The notes beneath the pieces are model-generated. The model was not told the DNA's origin. It ran no database searches and saw only the letters and a program-made list of their open reading frames with translations. DNA of 33,430 nucleotides from a virus, in the IMG/VR virus record IMGVR_UViG_3300035228_002162, positions 1-33,430 of that record; one strand, given 5' to 3'. Of this stretch, positions 9,253 through 23,748 are shown one piece after another. The position numbers and the translations under genes were made by a program. How positions within the stretch are numbered: the stretch's first letter is position 1; each line of letters opens with the position of its first letter.

Positions 9253-10014
9253 TTATGCACCCTTATCCATTGCGATGAAGAATGGCATTCCGCCTGGATA
9301 GTGTTCTTGAAAGAACTTTTCCGTTTTAGAAGCCATTACTCCACCTTGAGCGATTAGCTCGCCTCCATCGAGGCTCACAATTTGAGCCTCTTGACCCTTC
9401 TTGGTATCAGGGTCATAAATGGAGATCGCACAATGCGCTTGATCGACTTCGATGTCATACATCTGTTCGATCGCTTGTGCGTAAGCTCCCAACTGCATTC
9501 GATAGTCCGCAAGTTGGTAGTCAGGTTTCTCCTTATAGCTGGTTTTCCAATCCAAGAGAGCAAAATTGCCATCTTTCATGGTCGCCAGCATGTCAAAAGT
9601 TCCGGCATAGCCGATTTCTCTTGACGGACAAAACCAACAGATTGCGCTTTCGACGAGCTGAGGCTCGTCAATGCGCTCAAGAAAGCTCAGAATACTCTCG
9701 TAATACGGAATGTATTGCGGGAATTGATCAAGGTGAGATTCAATATCTTCACCATTGAATTGATCTTCTAGAACTCCGTGCAGCCAGTTTCCTCGCTCCA
9801 CGGCATTTCTTGTGCGACGATTTGCCTCGGCATTGCCAACGCGCTTGCGCCAATTAATAAGCGCCATGGTCTTGCCTACAGGAGCAGTGGCCGAAGCCAC
9901 TGTTGTGACTGATGGCAGGACGAGCCCAGGCGCGACGTTTGGCATCTCATCAGCAACGTAATAACGCTTCTTGTTGATCTGCAATCGATTGGGATCGTAG
10001 CGCTTGAATTTCAT
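9253..10014 (-). CDS. Cas4/RecB-family PD-(D/E)XK exonuclease
   Basis: ATG 10014 follows the stop of the small membrane gene by 7 bases and gives 253 residues. RecB-family landmarks are visible: His79 in RGNWLHGVLE, Glu122 in LVESAICWF, Asp141 in GYAGTFDMLA and Asp155-x-Lys157 in LLDWKTS, then a Gln/Tyr motif in YRMQLGAYAQAIEQ. Such enzymes degrade DNA ends to leave single strands. With the DUF1071-type protein and the SSB-like protein, it would form a Red-like recombination set. There are no Cys residues placed like the Fe-S cluster of true Cas4. Confidence 0.85.
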   Translation of the reverse strand: MKFKRYDPNRLQINKKRYYVADEMPNVAPGLVLPSVTTVASATAPVGKTMALINWRKRVGNAEANRRTRNAVERGNWLHGVLEDQFNGEDIESHLDQFPQYIPYYESILSFLERIDEPQLVESAICWFCPSREIGYAGTFDMLATMKDGNFALLDWKTSYKEKPDYQLADYRMQLGAYAQAIEQMYDIEVDQAHCAISIYDPDTKKGQEAQIVSLDGGELIAQGGVMASKTEKFFQEHYPGGMPFFIAMDKGA

Positions 10015-21366: not shown

Positions 21367-21669
21367 ATGCATTACGTCACTCACTATCAAGACAACGGCC
21401 CTTACTTTTCTCCAACGAGAGATAGGTGGGAAATCCATTGCTTTCGTGATTTGTTATTCCATGTTCGTCGATGCATGGAAGATCATGATGATTACGTTGC
21501 TGTTTATCAAGGCGACAGATGTGCAGCAATCTGGAGCCGTGAGTCTGACATCCAAAGCGATGGCGAAGGTGGTATGGAATCTGCTGGCGAATGGTACGAA
21601 ATGCACCGACCAGGCAGCCTCAGCCCTGGGCTGTGGAACATAATGGAGAAAAGGTGTCGTGTCGGGTGA
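21367..21669 (+). CDS. Hypothetical protein
   Basis: The 100-residue protein begins MHYVTHYQDNGPYFSPTRDR, then WEIHCFRDLLFHVRRCMEDH and AVYQGDRCAAIWSRESDIQS. It is rich in His, Trp and Cys but has no clear metal motif. The stop overlaps the oxygenase-like gene start (GTGA). No family recognised. Confidence 0.65.
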   Translation: MHYVTHYQDNGPYFSPTRDRWEIHCFRDLLFHVRRCMEDHDDYVAVYQGDRCAAIWSRESDIQSDGEGGMESAGEWYEMHRPGSLSPGLWNIMEKRCRVG

Positions 21670-22289: not shown

Positions 22290-22430
22290 ATGTCTGACAA
22301 CCCTCGCTTCGGTTTTTTTGCTTTTGCTGAAACCTGGAATGGACGCTTGGCGATGATGGGTTTTGTCATTGGCCTCAGCACTGAAGCCTTGACGGGCCAG
22401 GGAATTCTCGCTCAAATCGGTCTTGGTTGA
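22290..22430 (+). CDS. hli: High-light-inducible protein (Hli), chlorophyll-binding
   Basis: The 46-residue protein has the chlorophyll a/b-binding motif ExxNxRxAMxG: Glu14, Asn17, Arg19 and AMMG (21-24) in AETWNGRLAMMGFVIGLSTE. One membrane span follows. Hli proteins bind chlorophyll in the thylakoid and protect photosystems from excess light. Cyanophages carry them to keep photosynthesis running during infection. The length is typical of phage copies. A TAAAAT element lies upstream. The large repeat region begins 111 bases after the stop. This is the best evidence for a cyanobacterial host. Confidence 0.93.
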   Translation: MSDNPRFGFFAFAETWNGRLAMMGFVIGLSTEALTGQGILAQIGLG

Positions 22431-22457
22431 TCTAATACTTCACTCTGACCAATAGAA

Positions 22458-22571
22458 ATGAATGCATACGTTGCTTTGACTTATCTGCCTTATAGGTGCC
22501 CCTGGGCTTATTACGCAACGTTACTAAAGAGGCTTCGGACCCGGCTAGGATCGTATCTTGAAACCGGCTAG
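22458..22571 (+). CDS. Doubtful very small reading frame
   Basis: The 37-residue frame reads MNAYVALTYLPYRCPWAYYA then TLLKRLRTRLGSYLETG. It runs into the second 23-bp repeat, so the end would be encoded by regulatory repeats. The Tyr/Leu-rich start is not typical noise, but no homology or start signal supports it. Confidence 0.22.
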   Translation: MNAYVALTYLPYRCPWAYYATLLKRLRTRLGSYLETG

Positions 22572-22632
22572 GGTCGTATTTTAGATCCGGCTAGGGTCGT
22601 ATTAAGGGTCCGGCTAGGGTCGTATTAAGGGC
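22541..22632 (+). repeat. Four tandem 23-bp repeats
   Basis: CCGGCTAGGGTCGTATT (first copy CCGGCTAGGATCGTATC) begins at 22541, 22564, 22587 and 22610, exactly 23 bp apart. The core is shared with the two repeats at 15776 and 15797. On the minus strand it reads AATACGACCCTAGCCGG. Confidence 0.9.
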
Positions 22633-22648
22633 GAAGGGGGGATTTTGG

Positions 22649-22901
22649 TGATAATGATTCTCATTCTCAATAAAAAATGATAATGATTCTCATTCTCAAT
22701 AATTATTGATAATGATTCTCAATTGCAATAAGAAGTGATAATGATTCTCATTCTCAATAAATCGTGTGCCAGTTGCAAAATTGTCACAATGATAATGATT
22801 CTCATTCTCAGTAAGCTTGTTGATAATGATTCTCAATTGCAATAGATGAAGCTGTATGGTGACTTGGTATTTTTATTGACAATGATTCTCAATTGCAATA
22901 G
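22649..22901 (+). promoter_or_regulatory. Array of seven Fur-family box-like elements
   Basis: TGATAATGATTCTCA begins at 22649, 22678, 22707, 22736, 22790 and 22821; a variant, TGACAATGATTCTCA, at 22877. It is a 7-1-7 dyad (TGATAAT-G-ATTCTCA) one base away from the symmetrical Fur consensus. Copies 1, 2, 4 and 5 are followed by TTCTCAATAA or a close variant, which adds a further ATTCTCA hexamer. Copies 3, 6 and 7 carry ATTGCAATA instead. Spacings are 29, 29, 29, 54, 31 and 56 bp. The same box also fits reported cyanobacterial Zur sites, so the regulator could be Fur or Zur. Confidence 0.8.
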
Positions 22902-22932
22902 ATGAAGCTGTATGGTGACTTGGTATTCTTTT
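22821..22932 (+). repeat. 56-bp tandem duplication carrying boxes 6 and 7
   Basis: 22821-22876 and 22877-22932 are almost identical, including GATGAAGCTGTATGGTGACT after each box. Only a few bases differ (e.g. TGATAATG versus TGACAATG), pointing to a recent duplication. Confidence 0.9.
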
Positions 22933-23571
22933 ATGTCACTTTGTAACATTTGATACACTCTATTCTTTATACTTTTGTCCTGAACTATTTGGTTTAAGTG
23001 TTGCCTACCGTTTCGCCGTAGTGTGTCACGATGCCACGCTAAAACGTGGCGGCGATGACACAAACTGATCATGCAGTTTATGATAACAATGCCGCAGAAT
23101 TTAGCAAGACAAAGTAAAGAGAAAAAAGCATTTTTAGTCGTATCAATGGCGCCGGAATGATTAGCAGAACTGATCACTGCTGAGAGGCTCCTAAGAGCCT
23201 CTGCAAGGGCTTCGACCCTCTTTCGAGTGCTACCCCACCTAGCAAGCATTTCAGCCGATCGCCAGTGATGGCAAGGTATCTCAGCCGTTAATGTTCGCAG
23301 TGATACCAAAAATGGATTTCTTGACAGAATCCCACAAGCCGTGGTATTTCGCGCGGCCGCGTTTCCTTTTATCCCTGAGACAGTCACAGCAGCAGAATCA
23401 GCAGCCCATACCATCCCCCATCCGATCTCGTCAAGTCAACGAAGCGCATCGATGGACACTTAGAAAGGTGTACCCGGATTGGGATCGTTGCCGTTTCAGC
23501 GACTGTTTTTGCTGTATTGTTCATCCAACGGCGCAGCGATGCACCGGCCAACCTCTCAAACCTCTTCAGTC
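22933..23571 (+). other. Noncoding region with several strong hairpins
   Basis: No convincing gene is seen; frames on both strands look like chance. It starts with TTTGTAACATTTGATACAC (22940-22958), then TATACT at 22968. A long stem joins GTGTCA (23023-23028) to TGACAC (23056-23061), with inner GCCACG/CGTGGC (23033-23038/23045-23050). AGAGGCTC (23183-23190) pairs with GAGCCTCT (23195-23202), and AGGG/CCCT follows at 23206-23219. It may hold RNA genes or an origin. Confidence 0.45.
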
Positions 23572-23748
23572 ATGACAAACACAACAGCACTTAAGGCAAG
23601 CTTCGCAGCGCTTGTGATCGGCTTTCTAGCTCCTTTAGGCGTGATCTTCCTCGCTTCATTAGCCGCAGAGGATCAAAGAGCATTTTTAGCCTGTCGCCAG
23701 TCTGGCCAGTCCACTGACGCTTGCATACTTCAAATTCACGGCCGCTGA
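23572..23748 (+). CDS. Small membrane protein with C-terminal Cys pair
   Basis: ATG 23572 (leader CAAACCTCTTCAGTC) gives 58 residues: MTNTTALKASFAALVIGFLA, then PLGVIFLASLAAEDQRAFLA, one membrane span (about 10-31), then CRQSGQSTDACILQIHGR with two Cys ten residues apart. The plan matches the gene at 16791. It would be the first gene downstream of the box array. Function unknown. Confidence 0.68.
   Translation: MTNTTALKASFAALVIGFLAPLGVIFLASLAAEDQRAFLACRQSGQSTDACILQIHGR

Follow-up and report, generated by a model that had tools for sequence, protein, structure and literature searches.

An array of seven Fur-family-type boxes in a cyanophage of the S-CBS4 kind, a candidate decoy for the host regulator Zur

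The Zur boxes of marine Synechococcus, described by the 23-nt consensus NTNANAATGATNATCATTNTNAN, lie in the znuA/znuC and bmtA promoters (PMC9337993), with one or two boxes per chromosomal promoter beside zinc genes. That Fur boxes in multiple copies titrate their repressor is an established laboratory effect, known from FURTA (PMC3145626), and in synthetic DNA sponges (PMC7686491) many operator copies likewise bind a repressor and derepress host genes; these are laboratory plasmids, whereas the locus described here is a natural part of a phage genome. Cyanobacterial LexA boxes follow the consensus RGTACNNNDGTWCB (PMC3091678). Among phages, an element that comes close is the injection stop signal of T5, in which DnaA boxes are described together with repeats and palindromes and which may interact with host components (PMC13250531). 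Boxes of the Fur/Zur type, the titration of repressors and the repeat-rich stop signal of T5 were thus already known separately, and in the open-licence PMC full texts we found no report of a natural phage locus composed of host-repressor operator arrays.

The DNA analysed here, referred to as the window, is a linear virus record of 33,430 bases. The initial annotation had taken it for a cyanophage, which is borne out by a terminase with 85.5% identity to Synechococcus phage S-CBS4 (host Synechococcus CB0101) and by the presence of a high-light-inducible gene. Because of these two features, we assign the window by its sequence to a cyanophage of the S-CBS4 kind; its host, deduced from the relatives of the phage, is presumably a picocyanobacterium.

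Architecture of the array and its surroundings

The 15-mer TGATAATGATTCTCA is present in six exact copies and one variant, TGACAATGATTCTCA, all on the + strand between 22649 and 22891. The repeat unit reaches 22901, and the last 15-mer stops at 22891. The boxes are:

22649-22669, + strand: box 1, full 21-mer TGATAATGATTCTCATTCTCA, exact 15-mer, 1 mismatch to the cyanobacterial Zur consensus
22678-22698, + strand: box 2, full 21-mer, exact 15-mer
22707-22727, + strand: box 3, exact 15-mer, right extension ATTGCA, 3 mismatches to the Zur consensus over 21 nt
22736-22756, + strand: box 4, full 21-mer, exact 15-mer
22790-22810, + strand: box 5, full 21-mer, exact 15-mer
22821-22841, + strand: box 6, exact 15-mer, right extension ATTGCA, copy missing in the relative L036
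22877-22897, + strand: box 7, variant TGACAATGATTCTCA

Their starts are 29, 29, 29, 54, 31 and 56 nt apart. The seven copies in non-coding DNA reported by the initial annotation were confirmed, and no copy appeared in 5000 dinucleotide shuffles of 22400-23300. The hexamer chain that it had read in the repeat (GAGAAT-GAGAAT-C-ATTATC) is complete in the copies starting at 22649, 22678, 22736 and 22790; the other three have GCAATT-GAGAAT-C-ATTATC or its variant. All boxes except the four full 21-mers end in ATTGCA. TGATAATGATTCTCATTCTCA, the 21-mer of the four full copies, is an imperfect 10-1-10 palindrome that contains two overlapping 7-1-7 boxes. The arms pair at 6 of 7 positions in every copy, with the inverted 7-1-7 repeat close to TGATAATNATTATCA, and six copies match TGAKAATNATTMTCA exactly. 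The full 21-mer differs from the E. coli Fur 19-mer at 2 positions. Matches with up to 3 mismatches numbered 20 in the window, compared with a mean of 1.4 and a maximum of 5 in shuffled windows (each palindrome is counted twice). The proposed identity as Fur-family operators thus agrees with the pairing and with the exact TGAKAATNATTMTCA matches, and we conclude from sequence likeness that the boxes are operators of this family.

The array is embedded in further repeats and conserved DNA, between small genes:

21367-21669, + strand: small conserved ORF, 100 aa, which bounds the interval on the left in relatives
22290-22430, + strand: high-light-inducible protein gene (hli), 46 aa (phrog_178, E 4.5e-10), left neighbour
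22538-22626, no strand assigned: second array, four ~23-nt repeats around CCGGCTAGGGTCGTAT, just left of the boxes
22817-22928, no strand assigned: two copies, 95% identical, of a 56-nt unit containing boxes 6 and 7 and AGATGAAGCTGTATGGTGACTTGGTATT
22930-23170, no strand assigned: conserved non-coding DNA, 91% identical overall to L036, containing two inverted repeats able to form hairpins, GCCACGCTAAAACGTGGC and AAACTGATCATGCAGTTT
23572-23748, + strand: small ORF, 58 aa, nearest conserved gene rightward, 83% identical in L036
23789-24667, + strand: GP88-family gene, 292 aa (PF17338, E 2.2e-18), right boundary gene in relatives

The second array and the conserved DNA to the right of the boxes had both gone unrecorded in the initial annotation. 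Repeats of the CCGGCTAGGGGCGTATC type (~23 nt, CCGGCT...GTAT) precede the operator arrays in the window, L036, L057, L059 and L064, though the boxes themselves differ, and GAAGCTGTA..GT.ACTTGGT comes directly after the boxes in L008 as well as in the window. To the right, ~240 nt of non-coding DNA are strongly conserved, with 93-97% identity to L036 at 22910-23089; the part at 22930-23090 possibly represents an RNA or further protein-binding sites. Rfam gave no family above threshold for 22930-23170, the sole match near the array being RsmV at 23179-23382, below threshold. Folding of 22900-23200 gave z values of -1.6 (+ strand) and -2.6 (- strand), which are suggestive at most. We also considered a minus-strand ORF across the array (22833-23414), which has a similar length in L036. 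Its comparison with L036 revealed compensating one-base gaps and changes at all three codon positions (22, 19 and 32), and since this speaks against a coding function, the ORF was rejected.

The array begins 218 nt past the hli gene, and ~680 nt separate its last box from the next conserved ORF. Its neighbours are hli, small ORFs and the GP88 gene, none of them with a known role in zinc metabolism; the array therefore consists of DNA that resembles Zur boxes but stands outside a zinc regulon. The GP88 protein has an invariant C-X5-C-X3-C motif. Its predicted structure (pLDDT 85) had no significant Foldseek match, and in a second structural comparison radical-SAM proteins ranked first with Z values of 5-7, too weak for an assignment; GP88 may be an iron-sulfur enzyme.

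Relation to the Zur and Fur boxes of the host

Compared with NTNANAATGATNATCATTNTNAN, the four full 21-mers have 1 mismatch and the other three copies have 3. The phage boxes thus share the architecture of the marine Synechococcus Zur boxes but differ from them in number, seven in one place, and in having no zinc gene nearby. To see how such boxes are used in hosts, we searched 350 Cyanobiaceae genomes; a PsbA query served solely to reach cyanobacterial genomes. Exact G/C-centred boxes, the sites to which this count is confined, were rare: they occurred at least once in 61 genomes and at most four times in one genome, whereas the control matched in 8. At least 15 of the 32 sites inspected adjoin ZnuA- or ZnuC-like genes, and the sites often flank znuA, znuC or CobW genes; Pfam analysis of representatives beside the boxes confirmed ZnuA, an ABC ATPase, CobW (COG0523-type) and a FUR-family regulator. 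The exact 15-mer of the array adjoins znu-type genes in two stretches (L197 and L204). A/T-centred host boxes, which adjoin a Crp-like regulator near ferritin genes, are probably Fur sites.

Since the G/C-centred box marks zinc-uptake genes in picocyanobacteria, the host partner of the array is likely to be Zur rather than Fur. The earlier proposal of Fur or Zur thus holds for the family and is sharpened to Zur, with the reservation that sequence alone cannot decide between the two, because the boxes of Fur-family proteins overlap so much. A search for FUR-family genes found none, either in the window or in 21 further records, which include array-bearing and control phages and of which several are fragments; for this reason the partner is probably a host protein.

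Conservation in relatives and recurrence in unrelated phages

In L036, which keeps six of the copies, 126 of 126 box bases are identical to the window. Identity falls to 95% between the boxes, 78% in the left array and 63% at four-fold degenerate sites of GP88. Because the boxes are invariant while four-fold sites of the nearby GP88 gene have changed, the pattern is that of purifying selection on the boxes. Part of this conservation signal may belong to another element, since the stretch following the array is also kept, to ~23089 (93-98%).

In a dozen relatives with GP88 identities of 26-90%, the interval that holds the box has the same flanking genes, the homolog of ORF 21367-21669 on one side and GP88 on the other. 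These relatives carry one to seven boxes, and the box is present even where GP88 is only 26-40% identical. Several of these loci were retrieved with the exact 21-mer, which biases the sample towards positives; the box is absent from those relatives to which only GP88 had led (L056-L065). The initial annotation had named conservation in related phages as a point to check: the box is indeed found at the same place in many of them, though one clade, with GP88 ~63% identical, has no Fur/Zur-like box.

Other palindromes occupy the interval in the relatives found through GP88. LexA-like AGTACNNNNGTACT repeats are present in place of the box in L056-L058, L060-L063 and L065. L059 (2342-2481) and L064 (4887-4973) have an array of the palindromic TGATCATGATGCGTATTCGTATCA type with the 29-nt spacing of the window; in 121 host genomes this palindrome gave two weak matches only. 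Other types of palindromic repeat also occur there. LexA-like and Fur/Zur-like boxes occur together in L008, L016, L025, L039 and L049. LexA-like arrays of three boxes were found in 34 stretches, with a Fur/Zur-like box within 400 nt in 10 of these, some of the ten being interrelated. The likeness to the cyanobacterial LexA box thus lies in AGTACNNNNGTACT arrays beside the Fur/Zur-like boxes of the relatives, whereas the window's own array has no LexA-like box. As a separate observation, AGTACNNNNGTACT stands close to Fur/Zur-like boxes in L008, L016, L025, L039, L041, L049 and L084 and also in L261, L262, L264, L270, L272 and L281.

A search of IMG/VR for three boxes with spacers of 8-38 nt gave 29 stretches, compared with 0 for the reversed control pattern; they range in GC content from 0.33 to 0.64 and belong to several phage groups. 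In Justusliebigvirus, which infects E. coli, four to five Fur-type boxes stand in ~110 nt of non-coding DNA. This resembles the window in having several boxes in short non-coding DNA and differs in the phage group, in the presence of both box orientations and in the position between convergent genes. Clusters were also found in the T5 group (Salmonella phage SP01, SPC35 and T5). In T5 (L243), the cluster at ~9550-9710 lies inside the annotated injection stop signal, beside DnaA-type sequences, and is flanked by the convergent genes T5.017 and T5.018; similar DNA is present in 555 phage records. The T5-type boxes are more degenerate, most having 0-2 mismatches to the 7-1-7 pattern. Like the locus in the window, the stop signal is a non-coding repeat region that carries a Fur-box cluster, but its flanking genes are unrelated and T5 adds the DnaA-type sequences and a two-step injection. 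Since both the Justusliebigvirus and the T5 cluster lie between convergent genes, neither is the promoter of an annotated gene. In these E. coli and Salmonella phages, Fur is the best candidate for the binding protein.

Possible functions of the array

The reading we favour, with a probability of about 0.45, is that the array acts as a decoy ("sponge") of operator sites for a Fur-family metalloregulator of the host, most likely Zur. When the phage genome enters the cell and is copied, each genome would bring seven sites, and each full 21-mer could hold up to two dimers. The phage sites would then outnumber the few sites on the host chromosome, and the repressor would be drawn off the zinc-uptake promoters. 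Binding of Zur, its titration, the derepression and a benefit to the phage are steps that we infer. The decoy, already put forward in the initial annotation, gains support from the unusual copy number, with seven boxes per phage genome while no host genome had more than four exact G/C-centred sites. Conservation, the similar arrays of unrelated phages and the LexA-like neighbours in relatives speak for it as well. It would explain why so many high-quality sites stand where no promoter is close, and why the clusters in two groups of E. coli phages lie between convergent genes. The locus could be viewed as a variable operator cassette, in which LexA-like boxes alongside or instead of the Fur/Zur-like ones would fit a general interference with host repressors. 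Against this stands that the seven sites of a single genome entering the cell may titrate only little repressor, and that relatives with one or two boxes are poorly explained by titration. The clade with GP88 ~63% identical has no box, two of its members having a different array with 29-nt spacing, and the conservation of the DNA on the right points to a further function in cis.

Such a function could be control of phage transcription by host Zur, or by LexA in relatives, from a start within the array or next to it. The transcript could, for example, be an RNA encoded by the conserved non-coding stretch or that of the small ORF-GP88 genes, and the phage would in this way sense the metal or damage state of the cell. 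We consider this unlikely, yet it deserves attention: the ~240 nt right of the array are more similar to L036 (93-98%) than coding third positions are, three boxes overlap with a -35-like TTGATA/TTGACA, the boxes of the window, L036 and L008 are followed by GAAGCTGTA..ACTTGGT, and the cysteine motif of GP88 with its weak likeness to the radical-SAM fold would suit metal control. Promoter-like sites are, however, at most slightly above chance (5 compared with 2.6, s.d. 1.8), the next conserved ORF is ~680 nt away, seven operators are many for a single promoter, and the genes on either side of the T5 and Justusliebigvirus clusters are convergent. It is quite improbable that the boxes are iterons, that is, origin sites bound by a phage protein of replication or partition, with a likeness to Fur boxes that is due to chance or descent. 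Direct repeats with a regular 29-nt spacing speak for iterons, as do the adjoining 23-nt repeat array and inverted repeats, and the different palindrome with the same spacing in part of the sister clade would fit a co-evolving phage protein. The GC content is locally lower at the direct repeats. Iterons are countered by the recurrence of the Fur-type consensus in phages that are unrelated and infect E. coli, Salmonella and cyanobacteria, by the absence of a DnaA box from the region, by a skew without a clear switch and by relatives that carry a single box.

The position of the T5 cluster inside the injection stop signal raises another explanation, namely that host proteins on the array retain the phage DNA or make it pause during entry or packaging, as proposed for that signal, which may interact with host components (PMC13250531). 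The record of S-CBS4 ends at the array interval, which would agree with this, but no terminal repeat was found for the window, and we judge the chance of this explanation to be slim. To our knowledge, two-step injection has not been described for Justusliebigvirus or for these cyanophages. Neutral repeat expansion without function is the least probable explanation and would be surprising. The 56-nt tandem duplication indicates that box copies arise by duplication, and copy number differs among relatives; yet the boxes are invariant despite changed synonymous sites nearby, and they recur in unrelated phages while the control pattern does not occur at all.

The decoy reading could extend beyond this phage. 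Unrelated lytic phages would then have acquired, independently of one another, arrays of operators for host repressors (Zur/Fur, in some cyanophages also LexA) at dedicated loci in non-coding DNA, and these arrays would serve as protein-free decoys by which the metal uptake and the damage response of the host are reprogrammed. We propose this tentatively, as an idea somewhat more apt to fail than to hold. If it is true, a phage takes over host regulation without any protein, and infection is directly linked to the trace-metal nutrition of picocyanobacteria. It would also give a possible meaning to repeat-rich non-coding phage loci such as the T5 injection stop signal, and the T5 cluster brings it within immediate reach of E. 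coli genetics, with fur mutants and reporter constructs.

S-CBS4 was initially considered as a relative without the array and was rejected in this role. Its record (HQ698895) ends (end of L053) within the homolog of ORF 21367 and starts (start of L052) at the homolog of 26931, and so lacks the entire interval that carries the array in relatives. Since the record breaks exactly there, S-CBS4 cannot be counted as array-less, and its published genome may be incomplete at this interval. In 12 of the 26 whole contigs with the exact 21-mer, no more than 600 nt separate a box from the end of the contig (~4 expected, counted by hand); the arrays are therefore situated at breaks in the assembly or close to the ends of genomes.
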